DNA from: Hyphomicrobiales bacterium
GTDB taxonomy: Bacteria > Pseudomonadota > Alphaproteobacteria > Rhizobiales > Rhizobiaceae
DNA length: 64,000 nt
NCBI GenBank assembly: GCA_900466875.1
Contig: UBNQ01000020.1
Coordinates: forward strand, 62,001 to 126,000
Reading direction: 5' to 3'
Part shown: one piece after another, positions 42,253 to 61,913 of the stretch
Position numbering within the stretch: position 1 is the first letter of the stretch
Layout of the letters: the number at the start of each line of letters is the position of its first letter
Notes under the pieces: generated by a model
Told to the model about the DNA's origin: nothing
Seen by the model: only the letters and a program-made list of their open reading frames with translations
The model's database searches: none
Program-made: the position numbers and the translations under genes

Positions 42253-43566
42253 TTACCAGATCGTCACAGCGCCGGTGAGGAGCGCCGGGATCAGCATGAG
42301 CAGGCACAACAGCGCCGCCCATTTGATTGAGAATTTCTGGTGGTCACCGAACTCCACCTTCGACAATCCGGTGAGGACATAGGTGGCGGCGACGAGCGGG
42401 CTCAACTGATGGATCGGTTGGCCAATGAGGGATGCCCGGGCGATGACCTCCGGCGCGATGCCATAGGTCTTTGCTGCTTCTGCAAGGACCGGGACGACGC
42501 CGAAATAGAAAGCGTCGTTCGAAAGGAAGAAGGTAAAGGGAGCGCTGATCACAGCCGTGATAAGCGGGAGCCAATTTCCGTGACCTTCCGGGATCAACCA
42601 GACAATGCTTTGTGCCAAGGCTTCCGTCATGCCGGTACCTTTCAGGATGCCTGTGAAGACGCCTGCGGCAAAAATGACGGACACCACAGCGAGAACGCTC
42701 GACGAATGCGATGCGATGCGGTCTCGCTGATCTTTCACATTCGGGAAATTGACCGTGATGGCAATCGCGAAAGCGATCATGAAAAGGACCGCGAGAGGGG
42801 CGACGTCCAGGATCAGCAAAAGCATCAGCCCGACAGTCAAAGCGATGTTGAACGCTGAACGCCAAGCCGGAACGTTGAACTCATTCTCCATGGGATTGAC
42901 CCAGTCGGAATTTTCTCCGTGGACTTGGCCGGTGCTGTCATCATATTTTAGGTGGCCCAGCCGACGGCGCTCGCGAATACCGAGATACCAAGCGATGGCG
43001 AACGCTCCGAGGGTCGAGACTGCCAAAGAGGGGATCAGCGGGGTGAAGACCTGGCTCGCATCGAGGTGCAAGGCAGCCATTACGCGTGCTGTGGGACCGC
43101 CCCAAGGAGCCACATTCATGATGCTGTTTGGCAGCATGAGCACACACGGCAGAATAAGCGGATTTATACCGAGCTTACGGTGAAGCGGCAGCATAGCGCT
43201 TACGCACAGCAGGTAAGTTGTCGAGCCGTCGCCATCGAGCGAGATCACCGCACAAAGGATTGCGGAGCCCACAATCACTCGGACTGGATCGCCGCGGCAT
43301 ACACGAACGACGAAACGGACGATTGGGTTGAACAGCCCGAGATCAATCATCAGTCCGAAATAGAGGATCGCGAAAAGAAGAAGCACGCCTGTAGGAGCGA
43401 TCGACTTGATTCCGTCGATCATCATAGGCGGTATTTCAGGGCCGAACCCGGCAAAAACTGCAAATACGGAAGGCACCAGGATCAGCGCAATAAGCGCCGA
43501 AAGGTACCCGAACATGATGGCAGCCATGAAGACCACGATCATTGTGTAGGCAAGAATGGTTATCAC
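42253..43566 (-). CDS. CitMHS family citrate/dicarboxylate transporter
   Basis: About 437 residues from a GTG at 43566 preceded by GGAGTTCGAT; the frame is open to 43707 but the extra N-terminus is basic and Cys-rich. There are twelve or so membrane segments. The family motif SLDGDGSTTYLL is near residue 115, with NVAPWGGPTARVMAAL. CitMHS carriers import metal-citrate complexes or related carboxylates with protons. It is the first gene of operon copy 1 and faces the relic of a GntR regulator. The iron-citrate-type Fec genes lie just beyond that relic. Confidence 0.88.
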   Translation of the reverse strand: MITILAYTMIVVFMAAIMFGYLSALIALILVPSVFAVFAGFGPEIPPMMIDGIKSIAPTGVLLLFAILYFGLMIDLGLFNPIVRFVVRVCRGDPVRVIVGSAILCAVISLDGDGSTTYLLCVSAMLPLHRKLGINPLILPCVLMLPNSIMNVAPWGGPTARVMAALHLDASQVFTPLIPSLAVSTLGAFAIAWYLGIRERRRLGHLKYDDSTGQVHGENSDWVNPMENEFNVPAWRSAFNIALTVGLMLLLILDVAPLAVLFMIAFAIAITVNFPNVKDQRDRIASHSSSVLAVVSVIFAAGVFTGILKGTGMTEALAQSIVWLIPEGHGNWLPLITAVISAPFTFFLSNDAFYFGVVPVLAEAAKTYGIAPEVIARASLIGQPIHQLSPLVAATYVLTGLSKVEFGDHQKFSIKWAALLCLLMLIPALLTGAVTIW

Positions 43567-43722
43567 ATCGAACTCCAACCGGACCAAGCCGGGTTTCCCA
43601 TCGATTCTCCGCAGACATGACAGGCGAGGCATCTGACTTGCCCTAAGCGCACAATCTCCGCGAAGCCTCCTCAGACACCGGACGCAAGGATCTTGCATTC
43701 GGCACATTTTATTGTACTAATG

Positions 43723-43738
43723 ATTGACATATGACAAT
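43723..43738. promoter_or_regulatory. Imperfect palindrome upstream of CitMHS operon
   Basis: ATTGACATATGACAAT is centred on CATATG with ATTG/CAAT ends and one mismatched pair. It lies 157 bp upstream of the CitMHS GTG and just before the GntR relic. The style fits a GntR/FCD dimer site; the TTGACAT part could equally be a -35 element. Confidence 0.35.
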
Positions 43739-43767
43739 TTTAAAAACGATGCAATAGGATCTCGGCA

Positions 43768-44342
43768 CTGCCTATCGCAAATCATCCGCACAGATCATTG
43801 GCCGCGAAAATCCAGAAACTGGGGGGGTGGGATGAAGGGCTACAGATGCGGACGCCATGTGACGGAGGCATCGCTCGAAGAATTCCTCGGGACGTCGCAG
43901 GCTCCGATTCGGGCAGCACTTTTGCATCTCGCCAACGTAGGTGTGTTGGAGCGTATCCCTAAGCTTCAGGCTGGATCGGCGAGCCGTAGGCAGTTCTCAG
44001 AACACAGCTAAAAATGTTCGCTATGGCGGATTATCCACGTTTAGCTCGTTAGAGCTGTTCGAGGCCGACTCCAATTTTCATCAGGGTATCGCGGCCATTT
44101 CCGGCAATCGATTTCTGCAGGATACGAACGCACGCCAAAATCGGTTGAGGCGGCTCGTTGAAGACCGCCAGACGCTCGATCGGGATCAGGTTCGAGGACG
44201 GAACATCGAGCATATCGAATTGCTGGATGTCCTGGAGCGAGGCGACGGCTTCAAAGCAGAGCAGCCTTTGCGACATCATCTAGGTCATGCCAAGACACGC
44301 AAGGCGACGAATCGCATCTTCTTTTCACAACATGCCGATTAA
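43768..44342 (+). pseudogene. GntR/FCD regulator pseudogene (frameshifted, internally deleted)
   Basis: Pieces of this stretch match the intact regulator at 58315-59211. PIANHPHRSLAAKI near 43770 aligns with its start. After a frameshift near the G-run at 43824, GRHVTEASLEEFLGTSQAPI (from 43847) aligns with the first winged helix. After another shift and a large deletion, FHQGIAAISGNRFL through NIEHIELLDVLERGDGF matches the C-terminal FCD domain to a stop at 44342. The second helix and early FCD, roughly 120 residues, are missing. It is presumably the dead former regulator of the adjacent CitMHS operon. Confidence 0.85.
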
Positions 44343-52766: not shown

Positions 52767-54308
52767 TTAGACATTTTCCGCTTTCGTCGAATGTGTCGCG
52801 TCGAGGGATGCCTGTGCACGCTCGTCACGCAAAGACTTCCAGCGGAAGAAGGTTGGAAGAAGGACAAGCAGTGCGGCGACCAAAAGCAGTGCGAGCGAGA
52901 TCGGGTGGGTGACGAAGATCGTCGCATCGCCCTGACTGATCGTTAGCGCGCGACGGAACTGCTGCTCGGCCAACGGTCCAAGGATAAGGCCGACGATACA
53001 AGGAGCTACGGGAACGTTGAACACTCGCATGCCGAAGCCGATGATGCCGATGATCCAGAGGATCGCTACGTCTACGATATTGTTGTTCAGCGTGTAGGCA
53101 CCCATGGTCGCGAACAACAGGATACCGGAGAAGAGCCATGGGCGCGGGATTGCAAGGAGTTTAACCCAGACGCCTGCAAGCGGAAGGTTCAGCATCAGCA
53201 GCATGACATTGCCGATGTAGAGGCTTGCGATCAGGCCCCAGACAAGTTCTGGGTTGTTATCGAACAGCAACGGTCCCGGCTGCAGTCCGTATTGCTGGAA
53301 AGCGGCCAGCATGATGGCAGCTGTCGCAGACGTTGGGAGACCGAGCGCCAGGAGCGGAGCGAGCACGCCCGCTGCACTCGCGTTGTTGGCGGCTTCGGGG
53401 CCGGCAACTGCCTCAATAGCGCCATGACCAAACTCCTCCGGATTCTTCGAGAGACGCTTCTCCGTCAGATACGACAGAAATGTCGGGATCTCACTGCCGC
53501 CAGCGGGAAGCGCACCGATCGGAAAGCCGAGCAGAGTGCCGCGAAGCCACGGCTTCCACGAACGGCTCCAGTCCTCCTTGGACATCCATTTCGAACCTTT
53601 GAGATCGTAAAGCTCTTCAGTCTCGAAGCGGTGTCGTGAAACCGTGAACAGTGTCTCGCCGACAGCAAACAAGCCAACCGCCACGATCACGACATCGATG
53701 CCGTCGAGGAGTTCTGGGATGCCCAGGGAGAAACGGGCCTGGCCTGTCTGGAGGTCGATGCCCACGAGGCCGAGGGCCAAGCCAAAAAGGAGGCTTGCGA
53801 GACCTCTAGAAAGCGAAGCACCGAGGACCGCGGTAACGGTTGTCAGTGCCAGAACCATCAGCGCAAAGTATTCGGCCGGGCCGAAGAGAAGAGCAAGCTT
53901 CACCATAAGAGGCGCAACAAACGTCAAAGCGATCGTTGCGATCGTTCCAGCGACGAACGATCCGATGGCCGCCGTTGCAAGAGCCTGAGCTCCTCGCCCC
54001 TTCCGCGCCATGGCATGCCCATCGAGAGCAGTGACGATCGAGGCCGATTCTCCCGGCGTGTTGAGCAGGATCGACGTCGTCGATCCTCCATACATCGCAC
54101 CGTAGTAGATGCCCGCAAACATGATGAAGGCTGAAGTCGGCTCCAGGCCGTAGGTCACGGGAAGGAGCAAGGCGACGGTCAGAGCCGGGCCGATACCCGG
54201 AAGGACGCCGATCGCGGTACCAAGAGTAACCCCGATCAAGGACCACATCAGGTTATAAGGGGTGATAGCAACGGCGAAGCCGTGCATCAATGCTGCAAAA
54301 GTATCCAT
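52767..54308 (-). CDS. tctA: Tripartite tricarboxylate transporter permease TctA
   Basis: A 513-residue large membrane subunit with about twelve segments. Signature regions are [32 protein letters not shown] and [40 protein letters not shown], typical of TctA. It forms the inner-membrane carrier driven by ion gradient, with TctB as small subunit and TctC as binding protein. It lies downstream of tctC and tctB in the same orientation, ahead of the isomerase-like gene. The substrate class is di/tricarboxylates. Confidence 0.93.
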
Positions 54309-54362
54309 GTCACTTCGCCCTTGCGGCTTGGTGTTTTGTGGCGTGGAGGCTCGACGCGACGG

Positions 54363-54851
54363 TCATTCCGTCGGCGCGATCACATCCTCGATGAGACTTC
54401 CCGTCGGCAGGTCGAGATCGAGCCCATAGTCGAAGACGAGGTACGTCACCGAGGTGAGCAGGAGGCCAAACACGACATTGAGAACATGGCGGCGGCTGCC
54501 GAAAGCCATCGCCGCCACGGTGAACACGACCGTTCCGCAGATAATCCAGCCGAGAGGTTCCAACAGGAAAATCTGCGACGCCAACGCTGCGGCAACGATG
54601 CCTACGGCCCGCCAGTCGAGGTCTGGGATGTCCTCCTCGGCGAACCGATGAAGGTATCCTTCCCACAGTAGCTGAAGCCCAACGATCCCCATTCCGATCG
54701 CGATAAGTGTGGGAAACATGCCAGGGCCGACGACGGCAACCGCAGCAGAAGGAGGCGTCCTCCATGTGTCGATTGCGAGAAACATGCCGATGCCAAGGGT
54801 GAATAGGCCTACGACCGTTTCTCCGACGCGGAGACGAGCGGATTTGTACAT
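54363..54851 (-). CDS. tctB: Tripartite tricarboxylate transporter small subunit TctB
   Basis: A 162-residue membrane protein with four hydrophobic segments (about 10-30, 38-55, 75-115, 120-145), the usual TctB layout. It follows tctC after 24 bp and precedes tctA by 54 bp. TctB sequences are poorly conserved, so the assignment depends on topology and gene order as well as sequence. Confidence 0.88.
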   Translation of the reverse strand: MYKSARLRVGETVVGLFTLGIGMFLAIDTWRTPPSAAVAVVGPGMFPTLIAIGMGIVGLQLLWEGYLHRFAEEDIPDLDWRAVGIVAAALASQIFLLEPLGWIICGTVVFTVAAMAFGSRRHVLNVVFGLLLTSVTYLVFDYGLDLDLPTGSLIEDVIAPTE

Positions 54852-54875
54852 GGCGAATACCTCCCTGCCTGGCCG

Positions 54876-55847
54876 TTACAGCAAGCCGACTTCCTTGAGC
54901 GCCGTCTCGACTCGCTTCTGCTCGTCAGCGAGGAAGCTGCCGAATTCCTTGGCGGGCAGATACGTGTCGATCCAGCCGCGCTTGGCCAAGGCATCCTTCC
55001 ACTGCGGGGTCTTAACGAGATCGCCAATTGCTTTCTCAAGAGCCGCCCGCTCTGCTTCCGTGGCTTTCGGGTGAGCCATAATCCCACGCCAATTCATGAC
55101 GGCCAGATCGACGCCACCTTCCTTGAGCGTCGGTACGGCGACGCCTGGAATGCGTTCCTCACCCGTGACTGCAAGTGCGCGAAGCTGTCCGGCATCGACC
55201 TGGGCTCGGAATTCCTCGTAGCCGCTGATCCCGACGGTTGCGTGGCCGCCGAGCGTGGAGGCCAGGACTTCGCCACCGCCCGCATGCACAACGTAGTTGA
55301 TCTTTTTGGGGTCGACACCGACGGTCTTGGCGATCAGACCCGCTGCGACGTGGTCGACGCCTCCGATGGAACCACCAGCCCACGATACCTTGGTCGGATC
55401 GGCCTTGAGGCGCTCGATGAGATCGGCAAGCGTCTTGATGTCGGAACCCGCAGGAACGACAATGGCATCCGCCTCGCCCATCAGGCGTGCCACGGGGACG
55501 GTCTGATCGAGAGTAACGGCAGACTTCGTGGTGAGCACACCACCTACGAGCGCGAAGCCGATGACCATGCCGCTTGGATGGCGAGGACGCGTCGTAATGA
55601 ATTGTGAAAGTCCAACAGTGCCGCCGCCGCCCGCGACGTTCTGCACTTCCACGGGACCGGTCAACTTATTGTCCTGCAGGATGATCTGGATGGTCCGCGC
55701 AAGCTGGTCATAGCCGCTGCCCGGAGAACTCGGGGCCATCAGGTGGAGCGACTTAAGCTCCTGCGCCTGCGCCGGATTCTGCATAAGCAGAGCGGCGGTC
55801 GTTGCGGTGGCGATCAGAGTCGCGAATGCTCGTCTTGAAATTTGCAT
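54876..55847 (-). CDS. tctC: Tripartite tricarboxylate transporter substrate-binding protein TctC
   Basis: About 323 residues from the ATG at 55847, preceded by AGGAGGAACTCAC; the frame runs back to 55925. The signal peptide MQISRRAFATLIATATTAAL, with an RR pair, ends near AQAQE. The mature Bug/TctC domain includes APSSPGSGYDQLARTIQ, NVAGGGGTVGL and GGVDHVAAGLIAKTVG. It binds a carboxylate in the periplasm. Bug-family ligands vary (citrate, tartrate, nicotinate and others), so the cargo is unknown. Confidence 0.92.
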   Translation of the reverse strand: MQISRRAFATLIATATTAALLMQNPAQAQELKSLHLMAPSSPGSGYDQLARTIQIILQDNKLTGPVEVQNVAGGGGTVGLSQFITTRPRHPSGMVIGFALVGGVLTTKSAVTLDQTVPVARLMGEADAIVVPAGSDIKTLADLIERLKADPTKVSWAGGSIGGVDHVAAGLIAKTVGVDPKKINYVVHAGGGEVLASTLGGHATVGISGYEEFRAQVDAGQLRALAVTGEERIPGVAVPTLKEGGVDLAVMNWRGIMAHPKATEAERAALEKAIGDLVKTPQWKDALAKRGWIDTYLPAKEFGSFLADEQKRVETALKEVGLL

Positions 55848-55959
55848 GTGAGTTCCTCCTCTTATGCCGTGTTTTCGATCCCTGGTGGTCGACGATCGAC
55901 CCCTCCTCCAGGACCACCGGAACACGCCCGGTAATTGGATACAGGGCTCCTCGCCTACT

Positions 55960-57051
55960 TCAGGCAGCGCTGTAGGTGGGTCCCGTGCGCTTGATCGTTT
56001 CGGTCACCCTGCGGGTGAAGGCATCGGTATCGAGTTGGCCGCCAAGATCGCGTGTTCTCGATGTCGGATCACCGATCACGGATTCAACCGCGTTCTCGAT
56101 GAGGGACGATGCCTGTGTCAGGCGCTGGTCATTGCGCCTGCGGCCCAGCCATTCCAGGAGCATGGATGCTGAAAGCATAAGGGATGTCGGGTTTGCCACA
56201 TTGCGACCTGCAATATCGGGTGCCGAGCCGTGTTGCGCCTGGGCGACGCAGATATTGTCACCCGTGTTTACCGATCCGCCGAGACCAAGACTGCCGCAGA
56301 GTTCCGACGCTTCGTCGGACAGAATGTCACCAAACATGTTCGTGGTTACGATGACATCGAATCGGTCCGGAGAGCGGATGAGATGCGCAGCGGCGGCATC
56401 GACGATCAGTTCCTCAAGCTCGATATCCGGGAACTCCTCCGCGATTTTGCGCACTTCACGAAGGAAAAGTCCGTCAGATAGCTTAACGACATTCGCCTTA
56501 TGGACGGCCGTGACTTTCTTCCTCCGTCCCCGCGCGATCTCGAACGCCGCGCGAGCGACTCTGGAGGAAGCCTTCGCTGTGATTTTGCGGATCGAAAAGG
56601 CCATGTCCGGGTCTGGCATGAACTCTCCTGCCCCAGCGAACATGTTGCGGTCGGAGTAAAACCCTTCCGTGTTTTCCCGAACGATAACGAGGTCCATCGG
56701 TTTCCTGAGGATGGATAGGCCTTCGCGGGAGCGGCACGGACGGATGTTGGCAAATAGTTCGAACTTGGTCCGAAGCTCACCCGACGGATTGATCCCGCCC
56801 TTATCCCTGCTCGGATATTCGTAATGGGAGACCGGACCAAGAATGACGCCGTCAGCTTGCGGAACCATATCCATAACATCGGCGGTCAGCGTGGTGCCGA
56901 GCTCGGCCAATGACTTAAGACCGATATCCCGGTGCTCGTACTCGAAGCCAATGCTGAGTACCTCATCGACTGCACCGATGACTTCGAGGGTTGCCTTGGT
57001 AATCTCCGGACCAATCCCATCACCTGGCAGTACAAGAAGTTTTATAGACAT
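55960..57051 (-). CDS. Isocitrate/isopropylmalate family dehydrogenase
   Basis: About 363 residues from the ATG at 57051, preceded by GAGGAACGC; the longer frame to 57330 crosses the promoter region. It is an NAD-type beta-decarboxylating dehydrogenase: PGDGIGPE (9-16), substrate loop NPSGELRTKFELFANIRP (88-105), RENTEGFYSDRNMF (125-138), Lys185, NMFGDILSDE (238-247) and the NAD+ motif HGSAPDIAG (274-282). The substrate loop fits neither standard isocitrate nor isopropylmalate enzymes; tartrate, malate or a homologue is possible. It is the first gene of operon copy 2, facing the GntR genes. Confidence 0.88.
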   Translation of the reverse strand: MSIKLLVLPGDGIGPEITKATLEVIGAVDEVLSIGFEYEHRDIGLKSLAELGTTLTADVMDMVPQADGVILGPVSHYEYPSRDKGGINPSGELRTKFELFANIRPCRSREGLSILRKPMDLVIVRENTEGFYSDRNMFAGAGEFMPDPDMAFSIRKITAKASSRVARAAFEIARGRRKKVTAVHKANVVKLSDGLFLREVRKIAEEFPDIELEELIVDAAAAHLIRSPDRFDVIVTTNMFGDILSDEASELCGSLGLGGSVNTGDNICVAQAQHGSAPDIAGRNVANPTSLMLSASMLLEWLGRRRNDQRLTQASSLIENAVESVIGDPTSRTRDLGGQLDTDAFTRRVTETIKRTGPTYSAA

Positions 57052-57141
57052 GCGTTCCTCACCAAAAGTGGGAGAGCCCATAAGGCGGTCAGCCTCCACC
57101 GACCTGATCCTACGAATGAACGTCGGATCGTCTGTCTCCTC

Positions 57142-57200
57142 AAAGACCAATGTGGTCTTTCTCTCCTCAAAAAAACCAAGTATATTAGCACGTGGTCTTT
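57142..57200. promoter_or_regulatory. Operator candidates between IDH-like gene and GntR gene
   Basis: A perfect palindrome AAAGACCA-ATG-TGGTCTTT lies at 57142-57160. A second pair of half-sites, AAAAACCA (57171-57178) and TGGTCTTT (57193-57200), follows. Both lie in the 228-bp divergent region, 90-150 bp upstream of the IDH-like start and 80-140 bp upstream of the GntR GTG. ACCA/TGGT half-sites are in keeping with GntR-family dimers. Confidence 0.6.
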
Positions 57201-57279
57201 TGCAAGCCATAAATACCAAAAGCCAAGTTTGCACTGAATCGGTTATGTGTGAGATGTGACGAAACTTCGGAGCTAGACC

Positions 57280-58170
57280 GTGCAACCTACGCCGTTGATC
57301 AATGCCTTGGCGGACCAGATCGTCTCCCATATCCAGACTGATAGTTTGGAGGTCGGTGACCGGCTAATTGAGCGCAAACTGGCGGAGCAGTTCCGTGTCT
57401 CTCGGTCTCCGATCCGAAACGCAATGAAGTTGCTGCAAGACATAGGGGTACTGAGACAAAGCGATGCCGGCGGCTATGAGATTGCAGATGTCCGCGCGGC
57501 AGAGAGGCTTTCTCTTGAAAACGTGAGCTCTGAAGAAGATGAGAAAATCTATCTGACAATCGCTGACGATCGGCTACATGAGAGACTACCCGAACGTATT
57601 ACGGCGAGCGAACTGCAGCGCCGCTACGACCTCACGAAGGGGCAACTATCCAAAATCTTATCTCGGATGACGAACGAAGGATGGATAGAACGCTTGCCCG
57701 GCAATGGCTGGGAATTTCTTCCGGTGCTGACGTCACTGCAAGCATATGAAGATAGCTATCGTTTTAGGTTGCTCATTGAGCCTGCCGCTCTCCTCGAACC
57801 AAACTTCAAACTCAACAGGCCAGTCCTCGAACGCTGTCGCCGCGAGCAAGAATGGCTGGTTAATGGAGGGATCTGGGATGTGCAGGACGCCAAGCTGTTT
57901 GAGCTCAACAGCGGCATGCATGAGGCGATAATAGAATGTTGCAATAACAGCTTCTTTATCGATGCCCTGAAACGCCTTGATCGGGTCCGCCGACTGATCG
58001 ATTACCGTCAGATGCTGGAACGAGAAAATGCTCGCAGTCGGTGCCTTGAGCACGTCGAATTGCTTGATCTGGTGCTTGATGGCAAAAATGCAGAGGCCGC
58101 TAAATTCATGACCCGACACCTTACTGATCTAAGCCGGCTCAAAACCATCGCCCGAGAGAAGCGGGCTTAG
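57280..58170 (+). CDS. GntR/FCD family regulator with apparent second winged helix, copy A
   Basis: A 296-residue protein starting at GTG with GGAG 8 bp upstream. The first winged helix is at about 5-70 (KLAEQFRVSRSPIRNAMKLL). A second helix-turn-helix-like unit lies at about 88-150 (RITASELQRRYDLTKGQLSK, MTNEGWIERL). An FCD ligand domain spans about 155-290, with His214, His258 and His280 and Asn210 where Asp is usual. Ordinary FCD regulators are about 230-250 residues, so an extra domain is present. It is divergent from operon copy 2 and is its likely regulator. Confidence 0.85.
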   Translation: MQPTPLINALADQIVSHIQTDSLEVGDRLIERKLAEQFRVSRSPIRNAMKLLQDIGVLRQSDAGGYEIADVRAAERLSLENVSSEEDEKIYLTIADDRLHERLPERITASELQRRYDLTKGQLSKILSRMTNEGWIERLPGNGWEFLPVLTSLQAYEDSYRFRLLIEPAALLEPNFKLNRPVLERCRREQEWLVNGGIWDVQDAKLFELNSGMHEAIIECCNNSFFIDALKRLDRVRRLIDYRQMLERENARSRCLEHVELLDLVLDGKNAEAAKFMTRHLTDLSRLKTIAREKRA

Positions 58171-58314
58171 AGGTTACGAATTAGCATCATCCGAAGTTTT
58201 GAATCACGACACGCAGGAGCAAATCCCAACCATTCAAAACGGGCGAGCCCTTTCAAGAAGTTTGCTACGAGAATCCTGATCGGTGTAAGGATGGAGCGAC
58301 GAATGGGTGGATGA

Positions 58315-59211
58315 ATGGCTAACCAGCTTCACAGGGCGCTTGCTGCCAAGATAATTAGACACGCGCGGACAAGTGGGCTTAAGCCGGGGCACCACTTAAC
58401 GGAAGTGTCTCTCCAGGATGTGCTGGGGACGTCGCGGGGACCCATCCGTGCGGCGTTGGCGCATCTGACCGAAGATGGCTTCGTCGAGAAACAGCCCAAC
58501 CGAGGTTTTTTTCTAGTCAGGACTGATGATGCCGGCGACGTTCACTCAACCAACCGGGAAGCGACTTGCGACGACGAGACTCTCTACCTCGCGATCGCCG
58601 ACAGTCGCCTTGTAAGGTCGATCCCAGAGACGGTGTCCGAGCCGGAGCTCATGCGACGGTTCGACATCAGCCGCCTGAGACTTCGCAGGATTCTGACGCG
58701 AATTGCGACCGAGGGCTGGATCGAACGCCGGGAGGGGCGAGGCTGGTCATTCGTCCAGCTGATTGATTCGATTGAGGCTTACAGAGAAAGCTATGAGCTT
58801 CGACAGATGCTGGAACCTGCCGGGCTGCTGCATGACTCCTTCACTATCGATCATACGATCGTGGAGCGGCTTCGAAATCAGCAACACATGGTGCGCGACG
58901 GGGGATGGAAAACGCTCGGTCAGATTGAGCTGTTTGAAACTAACGCGCATTTCCACGAGGGCTTGGCAGCAATGTCAGGCAACCGCTTTCTTCTCGGTAC
59001 AATCGAGCGTCAAAACCAACTGAGACGACTCGTGGAGTACCGCCAGATCCTGAACCGTGACCAAGTCCGGGGTCAGAACGACGAACATCTTAAGATTCTG
59101 GATGCATTAGCACAGGGTAACCGCTTCGAGGCGGCGCAACTCCTTTCGTTTCATCTAGGTAATGCAAAGAACCGCAAAGCCAGAACATCAATTTTTTCCA
59201 GTGACAATTAA
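58315..59211 (+). CDS. GntR/FCD family regulator with apparent second winged helix, copy B
   Basis: A 298-residue paralogue of copy A with the same layout: first winged helix about 5-70 (SLQDVLGTSRGPIRAALAHL), second about 90-148 (ELMRRFDISRLRLRRILTRI), FCD about 155-295 with FETNAHFHEGL, DEHLKIL and LLSFHLG. It follows copy A by 144 bp. The GntR relic at 43768-44342 is closer to this copy than to copy A. It may control prpF downstream, operon copy 2, or, after loss of its local regulator, the CitMHS operon. Confidence 0.86.
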   Translation: MANQLHRALAAKIIRHARTSGLKPGHHLTEVSLQDVLGTSRGPIRAALAHLTEDGFVEKQPNRGFFLVRTDDAGDVHSTNREATCDDETLYLAIADSRLVRSIPETVSEPELMRRFDISRLRLRRILTRIATEGWIERREGRGWSFVQLIDSIEAYRESYELRQMLEPAGLLHDSFTIDHTIVERLRNQQHMVRDGGWKTLGQIELFETNAHFHEGLAAMSGNRFLLGTIERQNQLRRLVEYRQILNRDQVRGQNDEHLKILDALAQGNRFEAAQLLSFHLGNAKNRKARTSIFSSDN

Positions 59212-59341: not shown

Positions 59342-59533
59342 ATTGTAATATATTAAACTTTGCAACAATAACTTTGGCGCTGCTGCTTATGTCAATCGTG
59401 CGCCCCGACAAGGCAATCTCGTAAATTTTCGTGTTTTTGGTCGGCCATCTGACAAATGCGACTTATTTCTAAGGTAGGTCGGGGCAACCTGAGTCCAAGC
59501 GCCAATGCTTGGCATTGTAAGGAAGGCATAGTA

Positions 59534-60751
59534 ATGACAAAAGGCCTAAATGTGCCGCAGATACTGGTTCGACACGACACCATCGAGTTCCCAGTGCATC
59601 ATATGCGTGGTGGAACATCAACAGGTTTGGTGCTTTGGGAAGATCACCTGCCGCCTGAAAATGAGCTGCGCGAGGAGCTTCTGCGGCACCTTATGGGTGT
59701 GCCGACCGCTGGGGAACTTCGGGGCAACAGGCAGATTACGGGATTGGGTCGTGGTCCGGCGACAAGCAACAAGGTTTTCCTCGTTGACGTCATAGACCCG
59801 GATCGAGCAGAGATACGCTGTACGTTGGCCCAGTTAGCAAGCGACCACGGGAATATAGACTGGAGCGTCAATTGTGGAAATATGTCTGCGGCGATCCCTC
59901 TTTGGGCTTACGATGTGGGCCTATGGACAACTCGCTCCGATCAGCAGTACGAATGTGATATCTTCAACACGAATACGAACGTTCATAGCACCGCACGCCT
60001 GAGTGCGGACGACCGCGGACTTTCTCTTGCTACGATACCTGGGGTGGACGGCGCATTTCCCGCAGTTGACCTTTTCATTCTCGACCCAGTTGGAGCCAAG
60101 ACTGGCCAGTTGCTTCCTACTGGTCAGGTCGTCGAGCAAATTCACGGCTACACCATCTCTTGTGTCGATGTCGCGGTGCCAATGGTGATCGCAGATGCGA
60201 CACAATTCGGAAAGACCGCCCATGAACCGATTGCCGAATTGCAGGCTGACGCAGATTTCATGGCAAAATTCCATGAGATCTGGGTAGCAGCTGGCTTGAG
60301 GATGGGCCTGCGTAAGCGTGACGGAAATCTCATGACCGAGAGCGAAATTCGCGGCAGTGAGACGATCCCCAAGGCGTGCATCGTCGGTCGACCACAAAAA
60401 GGAGGAAACATATCTGTCAGGTACTTTACGCCACAGCAACCGCACTCTTCAATGGCGGTATCTGGGGCCTGTTGCCTATCTGCCGCTGCCCTCATACCCG
60501 GATCCGTTGCGCACAATGTCGCGGAAGGCCTTCCGAAGCTTAGTCAAACTCCAGGGGAAATTGTCGTCGGCGTCGAAAACCCAGCCGGGATTCTGGAAGC
60601 TACAATCGACGCCAGATCGACAGATGGGCACCTGCAGATCTCGAAAGCCGCCTACCGTCGGAATGCACAGATCATCGCCCGCGGGCATGTTCCGTTGTAC
60701 CGTGCCTCCTCGGCGTTACGTGAGGCACTTTTGGCCCGTTTGGGGGCATAG
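59534..60751 (+). CDS. PrpF family protein (4-oxalomesaconate tautomerase / aconitate isomerase-like)
   Basis: About 405 residues from the ATG at 59534, preceded by AAGGAAGGCATAGTA; the frame opens at 59456. PrpF fold motifs: HHMRGGTSTG (22-31), SNK with Lys80, and VNCGNMSAA with Cys114. The Lys-Cys spacing of 34 matches that recalled for PrpF (Lys73/Cys107). Family members isomerise 2-methylaconitate, trans/cis-aconitate or 4-oxalomesaconate by proton shift. Its place beside a tricarboxylate carrier and isocitrate-type dehydrogenase suggests isomerisation of an unsaturated tricarboxylate. Confidence 0.87.
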   Translation: MTKGLNVPQILVRHDTIEFPVHHMRGGTSTGLVLWEDHLPPENELREELLRHLMGVPTAGELRGNRQITGLGRGPATSNKVFLVDVIDPDRAEIRCTLAQLASDHGNIDWSVNCGNMSAAIPLWAYDVGLWTTRSDQQYECDIFNTNTNVHSTARLSADDRGLSLATIPGVDGAFPAVDLFILDPVGAKTGQLLPTGQVVEQIHGYTISCVDVAVPMVIADATQFGKTAHEPIAELQADADFMAKFHEIWVAAGLRMGLRKRDGNLMTESEIRGSETIPKACIVGRPQKGGNISVRYFTPQQPHSSMAVSGACCLSAAALIPGSVAHNVAEGLPKLSQTPGEIVVGVENPAGILEATIDARSTDGHLQISKAAYRRNAQIIARGHVPLYRASSALREALLARLGA

Positions 60752-60923
60752 AAGAAGGGTAGTCGTGCGCTGCCCAGTCACGGCTCGACGCTAATGGCGT
60801 GTTCCGGCATCGAGAGGACGCAGATCGTGCCTGCATTTGGTCAAGCGTAAAGCGGACGGCTCTGTTGACGGCGGACGGCGGCAATGTCATTGGTCCGCCC
60901 AGCCTGATCAAAGAGGCCTTTCG

Positions 60924-61913
60924 TTGGACCGCTCGACCTACCAGAAGATCGCAGCCCTTGCGGGCGTGAGCGTTAGCACTGTCGATCGCGTGATCAATGA
61001 GCGCGGTGGCGTGAAACTCGAAAAAGGCCGACGCGTTCTGGAGGCGGCGAGAACGCTGGGATTCGGGCGCAATCTTCCGGATCTTTGGCACTCTACCCGC
61101 CGCATTGAAGTCATCCTTCCCCGCAACCCCACCCCATTCTGGCAATCGCTGGACCGCGCGTTCGTACGCCATGGCGCAACCCTTCCACGCCATTACATCC
61201 TTCAGAGGACACATCTGCGGGAGAACGATCTCGGCCTTTGGAAACGAGCAATACTCAACCCGCCCGCGCCACGCACGGCATTGATCATCGCGGCCGATGC
61301 CGGCACGGAAATCGCTCCTGTCCTGAAGCAGGCGGCCGATCGGGGAGAAACGGTCGTGACCCTGACCACCGAAGTTCCCGGCTTTCCCGGACACAGCCAT
61401 TCAGGCATCGACAATGTTGCGGCCGGCCGCACGGCCGGGCATCTGATGAGCGGCCTGCTTCGCCGCGAGGGCCAGCTGGCCATACTGCCCCCTCATGAAC
61501 GGCGCACGGAGCACAGCCAGCGGATTAACGGGTTTCGGGAGATCGTTGGAGATCGATTTGCCGTTCTGATTTACCCCACCCACGATCTATCCCACCGCCT
61601 GTCTGCGATTGTCTCACACCTTATCGATCGCGAGGGCGTTGTTGGCATCTATGATACCGGACACGACTCCATGGAGATTGGCGAGACGTTACGGCGACGA
61701 AGCGAACGGCCGATATGGATCGCCCATGAAAAAAGCGAGGTCCACCAGCGCTATCTTCGTGACGGGATTCTGGATTTTGTTCTCGATCAGGACCCCGATG
61801 CGCAGGCTGCGCGCGCGATCTTCGAGATTCTACGACGCGACCGGGAAGGCATCGATCTCCTGCCTGCGCAAAAGCAGCCGGAATTGCGAATATACTGTCG
61901 CGAAAATCTGTAG
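60924..61913 (+). CDS. LacI family transcriptional regulator
   Basis: About 329 residues from a TTG at 60924 with GAGG upstream, chosen because the helix-turn-helix begins at once (STYQKIAALAGVSVSTVDRVIN); the frame is open from 60837, also a TTG. The sensor domain is a sugar-binding periplasmic-like fold (TALIIAADAGTEIAP, EGVVGIYDTGHDSMEIG). It precedes the FAD-dependent sugar/polyol dehydrogenase genes in the same orientation, with an 18-bp palindrome between, so it is their likely regulator. Confidence 0.87.
   Translation: MDRSTYQKIAALAGVSVSTVDRVINERGGVKLEKGRRVLEAARTLGFGRNLPDLWHSTRRIEVILPRNPTPFWQSLDRAFVRHGATLPRHYILQRTHLRENDLGLWKRAILNPPAPRTALIIAADAGTEIAPVLKQAADRGETVVTLTTEVPGFPGHSHSGIDNVAAGRTAGHLMSGLLRREGQLAILPPHERRTEHSQRINGFREIVGDRFAVLIYPTHDLSHRLSAIVSHLIDREGVVGIYDTGHDSMEIGETLRRRSERPIWIAHEKSEVHQRYLRDGILDFVLDQDPDAQAARAIFEILRRDREGIDLLPAQKQPELRIYCRENL

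Follow-up and report, generated by a model that had tools for sequence, protein, structure and literature searches.

Tandem winged helices and widely spaced candidate operators in two neighboring GntR/FCD regulators

GntR regulators with an FCD domain are ordinarily built on a simple plan, in which one winged helix connects straight to FCD. Two neighboring genes in a 64,000-nucleotide stretch of DNA from a Hyphomicrobiales bacterium (the whole stretch analyzed is referred to here as "the window") encode proteins, P0001 and P0002, that depart from this plan: a second winged helix (wH2), at residues 85–147, lies between the N-terminal winged helix (wH1) and FCD. The original prediction, made from the letters of the sequence, gave both proteins about 297 residues and a second block with an ELxRRxD...L..IL.RM/I...GWIER-type pattern. 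The open reading frames encode 296 and 298 aa, and the pattern is present in both proteins, as ELQRRYDLTKGQLSKILSRMTNEGWIER and ELMRRFDISRLRLRRILTRIATEGWIER. Both are, most likely, GntR-superfamily regulators of the FadR/VanR (FCD) type that respond to a ligand. Their genes, domains, and surroundings are listed in Table 1.

Table 1. Features discussed in the text, by position in the window
Feature	Position	Strand	Description
CitMHS citrate-transporter gene	42253..43707	-	
Candidate P0002-type operator	43711..43738	.	Between CitMHS gene and relic regulator
Relic of P0002-like regulator	43724..44342	+	wH1 and FCD fragments in different frames, wH2 missing
TctC, TctB, TctA (tripartite tricarboxylate transporter)	52767..55925	-	Behind Iso_dh dehydrogenase
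Isocitrate/isopropylmalate-type dehydrogenase (Iso_dh)	55960..57057	-	Divergent from P0001
Candidate P0001 operator, dyad 1	57153..57178	.	TGGT-N18-ACCA; promoter alignment and motif searches
Candidate P0001 operator, dyad 2	57193..57218	.	TGGT-N18-ACCA; 40 bp from dyad 1
P0001 gene	57280..58170	+	296 aa, GTG start; tandem-winged-helix GntR/FCD regulator
P0001 wH1	57292..57483	+	Residues 5–68, canonical GntR winged helix, extra N-terminal head; Pfam GntR 8–65, model, structural re-alignment
P0001 wH2	57532..57720	+	Residues 85–147, second winged helix, canonical place beside FCD; domain search, model, re-alignment, profile comparison
P0001 FCD	57736..58134	+	Residues 153–285, six helices, N210/H214/H258/H280; domain search, model, conservation
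P0002 gene	58315..59211	+	298 aa, ATG start; tandem-winged-helix GntR/FCD regulator
P0002 wH2	58567..58755	+	Residues 85–147; domain searches, model
Candidate P0002-type operator	59342..59369	.	TTGT-N18-ACAA, upstream of PrpF, in gap after P0002
PrpF-family gene	59456..60751	+	Follows P0002; start probably near 59534

Domain organization of the two proteins

Pfam places a GntR winged helix at residues 8–65 and FCD at residues 160–282 of P0001, and P0002 has the same plan. The winged helix scores 56.7 bits in P0001 and 62.7 bits in P0002 (cut-off 27), and FCD scores 50.2 and 52.4 bits (cut-off 24.3); N-terminal GntR and FCD matches are each found in 35/35 family members at E <= 0.001. When the block between these domains is searched alone, as had been proposed, it matches winged-helix families in both proteins. 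Residues 82–163 of P0001 match MarR-type families best (MarR_2, 7e-6; GntR, 0.009; both under their cut-offs), and residues 83–163 of P0002 match GntR at 1.6e-6, with 28.1 bits against the 27-bit cut-off. In profile comparisons, the wH2 block of the 35 family members has a homology probability of 98.4% with the winged helices of 36 FCD regulators of the ordinary kind and of 97.4% with wH1. As a negative control, wH2 and FCD gave 0.3%, with wH1 and wH2 each at ~1% or less against FCD. Of the two heads, wH1 is closer to the canonical sequence (99.8% vs 98.4% for wH2). The NCBIfam model TIGR03338 describes an ordinary regulator, and its alignment to P0002 runs unbroken over residues 106–287.

AlphaFold models of both proteins, built from 10-sequence alignments, have mean pLDDT values of 80.9 (P0001) and 80.5 (P0002) and pTM values of 0.60 and 0.62. 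Each contains a complete second winged helix, and in neither are residues 85–150 merely FCD helices. In P0001 numbering, wH1 consists of helices 5–20, 31–38, and 42–54 with a wing at 58–68, and wH2 of helices 85–99, 109–115, and 120–133 with a wing at 136–146. Regulators of the VanR subgroup have six FCD helices, and FadR has seven. Both models have six after residue 152, i.e., the VanR number. The linker between wH1 and wH2 has pLDDT below 50, and the relative placing of the heads is thus not fixed by the models.

Structural re-alignment indicates which head is the additional one. The best-ranked full-length ordinary FCD chains lie on residues 82–295 of the P0001 model, the best matches being Lar/Lmo0651 (6ep3_B, residues 4–220 on model residues 82–295; Z 18.7, rmsd 3.3 Å, 209 residues) and TM0439 (3sxy_A; Z 16.8, 4.4 Å, 197 residues), neither of which has a counterpart of wH1. 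Atu1419 of Agrobacterium fabrum, a VanR-subgroup regulator (6z74, 6za0, 6za3, 6za7), also superposes on wH2 plus FCD (6za7_B; Z 15.9, 3.9 Å, 207 residues). One exception is 2di3_A, which was superposed on residues 4–294 at 8.7 Å and not on wH2 plus FCD alone. Residues 2–81 of the model match other GntR DNA-binding domains, BusR and AraR, with Z about 10–11 (VIA-align). Since ordinary chains superpose on wH2 plus FCD, this part corresponds to a complete ordinary regulator, and wH1 to a surplus N-terminal head. No two-headed GntR-FCD chain is among the matches listed in the fold searches, and none of the 56 PDB sequences listed (best stretches only) in a profile search with the 35 family members is described as two-headed.

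Sequence and predicted structure together confirm P0001 and P0002 as GntR/FCD regulators with two GntR-type winged helices, and we treat them as a variant of the FadR/FCD subfamily, not as standard members. The four DNA-binding heads per dimer that had been proposed are likewise well supported by sequence and model, with dimerization expected from the FCD domain.

The second head is as conserved as the rest of the protein, with a mean entropy of 1.80 for wH2, 1.84 for wH1, and 1.92 for FCD. wH1 keeps the GntR signature (S41 in 35/35, R42 in 34/35, and R46 in 32/35 family members), and wH2 has R or K at residues 120 and 129 in 35/35. Across the 35 members, the third helix has a mean charge of +2.4 in wH2 and +1.3 in wH1; the whole head has a mean net charge of −0.2 in wH2 and +2.8 in wH1. 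In P0001 itself, the net charges are −2 (wH1) and −3 (wH2). wH2 has no counterpart of the conserved R46 of wH1: residue 124 is basic in 9% of members and residue 46 in 91%. This position is the counterpart of Arg49 of FadR. Residue 110 of wH2 is basic in 0%, and its wH1 counterpart, residue 32, in only 12%.

Residue 210, in the FCD metal site, was originally singled out as Asn in place of Asp. Both proteins do have Asn, and the relic at 44 kb keeps Asp, but the substitution is not unusual: column 210 of the family is D in 13, N in 11, and G in 11 of 35 members. H214, H258, and H280 are invariant (35/35), and in P0001 and P0002 the site has, at the sequence level, the expected Asp/Asn and three His. 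In Atu1419, FCD binds zinc through Asn137 and three His, as seen crystallographically (excerpts of PMC7797058). Because Asn is a zinc ligand in that protein, Asn210 does not argue for loss of the metal. We reject metal loss through Asn210 on these three grounds, i.e., the frequency of Asn in the column, the invariant His triad, and the Atu1419 precedent; by sequence and analogy, nothing suggests that P0001 and P0002 have lost metal.

Within the order, 58 of the 397 genomes searched, from 35 of 141 genera, have a match to P0001 at E <= 1e-25, and all the matches listed but one (G085, 10–239) span both winged helices and FCD. Near full-length matches in so many genomes indicate that the two-headed layout is more than chance. 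For P0002, with a limit of E <= 1e-20, matches occur in 16 of the 289 genomes searched from the class and in 20 of the 398 from the phylum, these sets overlapping. A search of a plasmid collection found matches to P0001 in 144 records, and in 133 the match covers at least 80% of the protein; 85 of the 144 are from Agrobacterium, Sinorhizobium, Rhizobium, Shinella, Ensifer, and Neorhizobium, and 13 from Pantoea. The 40 plasmid matches listed also include Cupriavidus, Comamonas, Variovorax, Paraburkholderia, and Caballeronia, and are annotated, where an annotation is given, as "GntR family transcriptional regulator" or "transcriptional regulator". The host genome has no close members other than P0001, P0002, and the relic at 43.7–44.3 kb. 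No tandem-winged-helix GntR/FCD regulator is named in the open-licence PubMed Central text that was searched, in excerpt, and the excerpts of PMC5882156, a paper on domain architecture, do not mention one. In the searches made, the two-headed layout is an established, widespread family, undescribed as far as the literature was covered.

Candidate operators and their box spacing

The genes around P0001 and P0002 include the Iso_dh-type dehydrogenase, tricarboxylate and citrate transporters, and PrpF, which makes organic acids the likely signals. The dehydrogenase also adjoins P0001 orthologues at other loci, confirmed by Pfam in L013, L014, L016, L017, and L019 and by motif in L015. TctA and TctC are found beside the orthologue by Pfam in L013, and TctA in L014–L017 by likeness of the ORF start only. 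A P0002 orthologue of A. larrymoorei (76% identity) is divergent from an operon of Tct, citrate symporter, and Ldh genes, and in the window the CitMHS transporter is accompanied by an Ldh_2 dehydrogenase (41.1–43.7 kb). In the wH1 fragment of the relic, SQ replaces the usual SR. Directly after PrpF lies a LacI-type regulator with a periplasmic-binding-protein-like domain (60837–61913).

When the promoter between the dehydrogenase and P0001 is compared with those of five relatives, the boxes of two dyads, TGGTnTTT-N10-AAAnACCA, are kept, 40 bp apart, giving at least four alternating boxes. In the host genome, these are the sole matches to the P0001 pattern at <=1 mismatch. With up to two mismatches, a reversed control is commoner than the pattern (11 vs 7 per strand), and with up to three, the matches in the window are near chance (3 vs 0.68 expected). 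Dyads were also sought upstream of P0001-type genes at 18 other loci, using 14 scored positions. Both are exact in six orthologous promoters (L013–L017 and L070) and imperfectly kept in L019 (14 and 11 of 14) and L060 (13 and 13). One dyad scores 13/14 and the second 10–11 in L062, L063, and L068, and a dyad is found at 12/14 in L061, L065, and L067. Scores in the remainder are at background level (10/14 in L064 and L069, 9 in L066, none in L018), the window itself holding a stray 10: no convincing P0001-type dyad lies upstream of L064 or L066, and L018 and L069, where the upstream DNA is unrelated to that of the other loci, have no dyad array. The dyads persist in L061–L063 and L065 although the annotated neighbors differ (an alcohol-dehydrogenase fragment, a second GntR gene, and an amidohydrolase), the L061 site lying inside the alcohol-dehydrogenase fragment, which ends 37 bases before the regulator. 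A site that stays constant while the neighbors differ points to autoregulation of P0001-type genes. An inverted pair, AAAGACCA-N3-TGGTCTTT, at 57142–57160 overlaps the left box of dyad 1, and a similar compact pair occurs in L014. A motif search of viral contigs gave no match.

The P0002 orthologues L116 and L117, from Agrobacterium, bear ATTGTTATAAATATTTACTTACGACAAT and ATTGTCATAAATAACGATTTACGACAAT, whose letters differ from those of the P0001 site; the distance from GT to AC is again 18. A P0002-type pattern was made from these two sites and the similar site that the relic promoter still bears. At <=1 mismatch, it has two matches in the host genome, 43711–43738, which had been used in the pattern, and 59342–59369, which had not been seen beforehand; 0.01 matches are expected per shuffled window. 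With up to two mismatches, there are 4 matches in the host genome vs 3 for the reversed control. The P0001- and P0002-type motifs thus have two host-genome matches each at <=1 mismatch, all within this window. Neither type of dyad was found directly upstream of P0002 in the window, and no convincing P0002-type dyad lies upstream of L118. The inner part of the L117 operator is itself symmetric (TAAAT...ATTTA). P0001- and P0002-type genes co-occur in L019, L062, L063, and L068, and the P0002-type dyad at these loci is mixed (TTGT-N18-ACCA). The two genes are mutually divergent in L062, L063, and L068, with both kinds of dyad in the common promoter, and in L062 and L063 the pair adjoins AtuA-like and DUF4387 genes.

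Operators of the FadR subfamily are reported to have the form TKGT-N2-3-ACMA, GT and AC being 3 nt apart, and 2 nt apart in certain groups (excerpts of PMC4494728). We counted T[GT]GT-Nd-AC[AC]A in 315-base upstream regions of 62 family genes and of 36 single-headed FCD genes picked by script. At d=18, there are 18/62 family regions, with 0.75 expected from shuffles, vs 0/36 ordinary ones. Ordinary regions peak at d=2 (5/36, with 0.38 expected), with 2 at d=17, and family regions at compact spacing number 0 at d=2 and 3 at d=3 (L034, L044, and L058). Smaller family excesses occur at d=11 (7/62), d=23 (5), and d=29 (5). The N23 and N29 sites share no one sequence across groups, and the d=11 pairs fall inside wide dyads: in L060, L062, L063, and L068 (P0001 strand), the partners are the outer left box and an ACAA further in; in L058, they are a TTGT further in and the outer right box. 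In these five loci, a second GT/AC-like box thus sits ~7 bases inside the outer box, where wH2 would sit, an observation made after the fact.

With 14 added loci, two of which (L116 and L117) had yielded the dyad beforehand, TKGT-N18-ACMA is found in 20/76 family regions and 0/36 ordinary ones. The 20 comprise 18 regions of the P0001 and P0002 groups and the distant members L058 and L059. L019, L062, and L063 are counted twice in both the 62- and 76-region sets since two family genes share one promoter there, and because members of an orthologous group are related, their counts are not independent. Strict N18 boxes occur in only 2/38 distant family regions. A fixed half-site matrix from P0001-type dyads was scanned over these 38 regions at spans of 23–27: it finds 10/38 distant family vs 0/36 ordinary regions at 10 bits, a cut chosen on the same 38-region data, 6 vs 0 at 12 bits, and 12/38 vs 3/36 at 8 bits, where 100 column-permuted matrices find a mean of 3.4 and a maximum of 10. 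A held-out set, the only one of these tests to be fixed beforehand, has a wide dyad in 2/11 (L112 and L114). In five of its nine misses, an annotated gene on the same strand lies no more than 90 bp upstream, and these five may lack a promoter of their own. Wide N18 spacing is therefore solid, at the level of sequence, among the P0001 and P0002 orthologues; for the other members it is no more than suggestive.

Dyads of 24 bp occur in another branch (L112, L114, and L024), e.g., TGATTTTTAATATTCAAAAAGCCA in L114, with L112 adjoining an aconitase gene. Compact palindromes, TGCACATATTTGTGCA and GCGACATATCTGTCGC, lie near the distant members L046, L047, and L048; some branches may thus have an operator of a different kind. 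A general search of the 38 distant regions for perfect 8-bp inverted repeats found 2–4 regions per span from 20 to 24 (<=0.5 expected); we rejected these as operators, as they are mostly G+C-rich hairpins, probably terminators.

The FadR recognition rule (excerpts of PMC4494728) offers a guide to which head reads which bases. Arg at HTH position 28 prefers G/C at the K of TKGT, and Asn at position 59 tends, not significantly, to A/T. Among P0001-type proteins with the dyad, wH1 has the Arg and no Asn, and the boxes are TGGT; P0002-type proteins have Val or Ala with Asn in wH1, and TTGT boxes. Both agree with the rule. L058 and L059 have Gln/His and Asn/Asn in wH1 and TTGT boxes. Two observations count against it: wH1 of L032 is Gln/Asn, yet its dyad is TGGT-N16-ACCA, and Pro at position 40, reported to avoid G/C (same excerpts), is found in wH1 of both groups, which speaks against the TGGT assignment.

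Possible readings of the wide operators

The best explanation, and in our view a fairly probable one, is that an FCD-joined dimer sets its four heads on one continuous predicted operator of 26–28 bp, with wH1 on the outer boxes. FCD and wH2 would form the usual dimer, with the wH2 pair close to the dyad axis and the wH1 pair displaced outwards. wH1 would read the outer TKGT/ACMA boxes (TGGT for P0001 and TTGT for P0002), and wH2 the inner part. Four heads with wH1 outermost would explain why GT and AC are 18 nt apart instead of 2–3. We infer this mode of DNA reading from sequence and models. Via the two tandem dyads, P0001 would probably control, besides its own gene, the divergent operon of dehydrogenase and tricarboxylate-transporter genes; the probable targets of P0002 are PrpF and, at 43.7 kb, the operon of citrate-transporter type. 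A metal-held organic acid binding to FCD would presumably alter DNA affinity, as in other FCD regulators.

Our confidences in the rival explanations overlap with one another and with that in the best one. wH2 might be a structural spacer, or relay the ligand signal off the DNA, with wH1 alone binding and the operator widened all the same. The missing Arg49 counterpart and the near-neutral charge of wH2 as a whole would suit this; the invariant basic residues 120 and 129, the strongly positive third helix, and the inner symmetry of the L117 site argue the other way, leaving the idea doubtful. It is also unlikely that two or more dimers share a dyad, one per TGGTnTTT/TTGT box, with the second winged helix mediating dimer–dimer contacts. 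Such an arrangement has a precedent in NanR of Escherichia coli, which resembles these regulators in its TGGTAT-type boxes and its use of an extra N-terminal part on a multi-box operator, and which sets three dimers on a (GGTATA)3 operator (excerpts of PMC8012715); the four or more alternating boxes at the P0001 promoter would fit it. Unlike here, the NanR boxes are direct repeats, and its N-terminal part is a 32-residue extension rather than a second winged helix. In the candidate operators, the boxes form inverted pairs across a constant gap of 18 nt, each P0002-type site consists of one dyad, and the third helix of wH2 is strongly basic.

The original prediction went further, suggesting that four heads could bridge distant operators. 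Atu1419, which shares with P0001 and P0002 the Asn and three His of the FCD metal site and four heads per functional unit, does loop two sites: its heads come from an FCD tetramer of single-head subunits bound to 10-bp palindromes 190 bp apart (excerpts of PMC7797058). If each subunit here used its two heads on separate operators, the P0002-type sites of the window, about 15.6 kb apart, could be joined in the same fashion. We looked for separate compact sites and found wide single dyads instead. Every site found is a complete, continuous dyad of 26–28 bp that could seat a whole dimer, and the tandem pair at the P0001 promoter, 40 bp apart, would be too close for an easy loop. This layout speaks against an Atu1419-type tetramer bridging two palindromes, and we consider looping very improbable. 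There is slightly more to be said for the view that the dyads are sites of a different regulator and precede these genes by chance, given that their assignment to P0001 and P0002 is made from sequence and that spaced dyads also serve LysR-type and other regulators. Against it, the array is found with P0001 orthologues whose annotated neighbors differ, its boxes are GntR TKGT/ACMA boxes, and two paralogous groups have a common spacing with different sequence, which makes this reading improbable.

Setting the four heads of one dimer on a single wide dyad keeps much of what is known of the FadR subfamily (FadR, LldR, PdhR, and DgoR), i.e., a GntR winged helix with the SR.P.R signature, an FCD domain, TKGT/ACMA boxes, and a divergent position beside catabolic genes. 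The differences are the two winged helices per subunit, in proteins about 55–60 residues longer, and the GT–AC spacing, 18 nt in the candidate operators vs 2–3 nt in the subfamily, which makes the candidate sites ~15 bases wider than those of ordinary relatives. The fixed 18-nt spacing in two paralogous groups is the most useful new observation. On balance, we are evenly divided as to whether these regulators represent an undescribed, widespread GntR branch that uses two successive winged helices per subunit on DNA, with a 26–28 bp operator of ~10–12 bp half-sites, the spacing acting as a ruler of the extra head and TGGT/TTGT paralogues splitting control of one catabolic cluster. GntR is a very large family of bacterial regulators, and searches that assume 2–3 nt would overlook a branch with 18-nt spacing. 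If the link between heads and spacing holds, operators could be read from protein architecture by a simple rule, and these proteins would illustrate how a dimeric regulator in nature gains specificity by doubling its heads.
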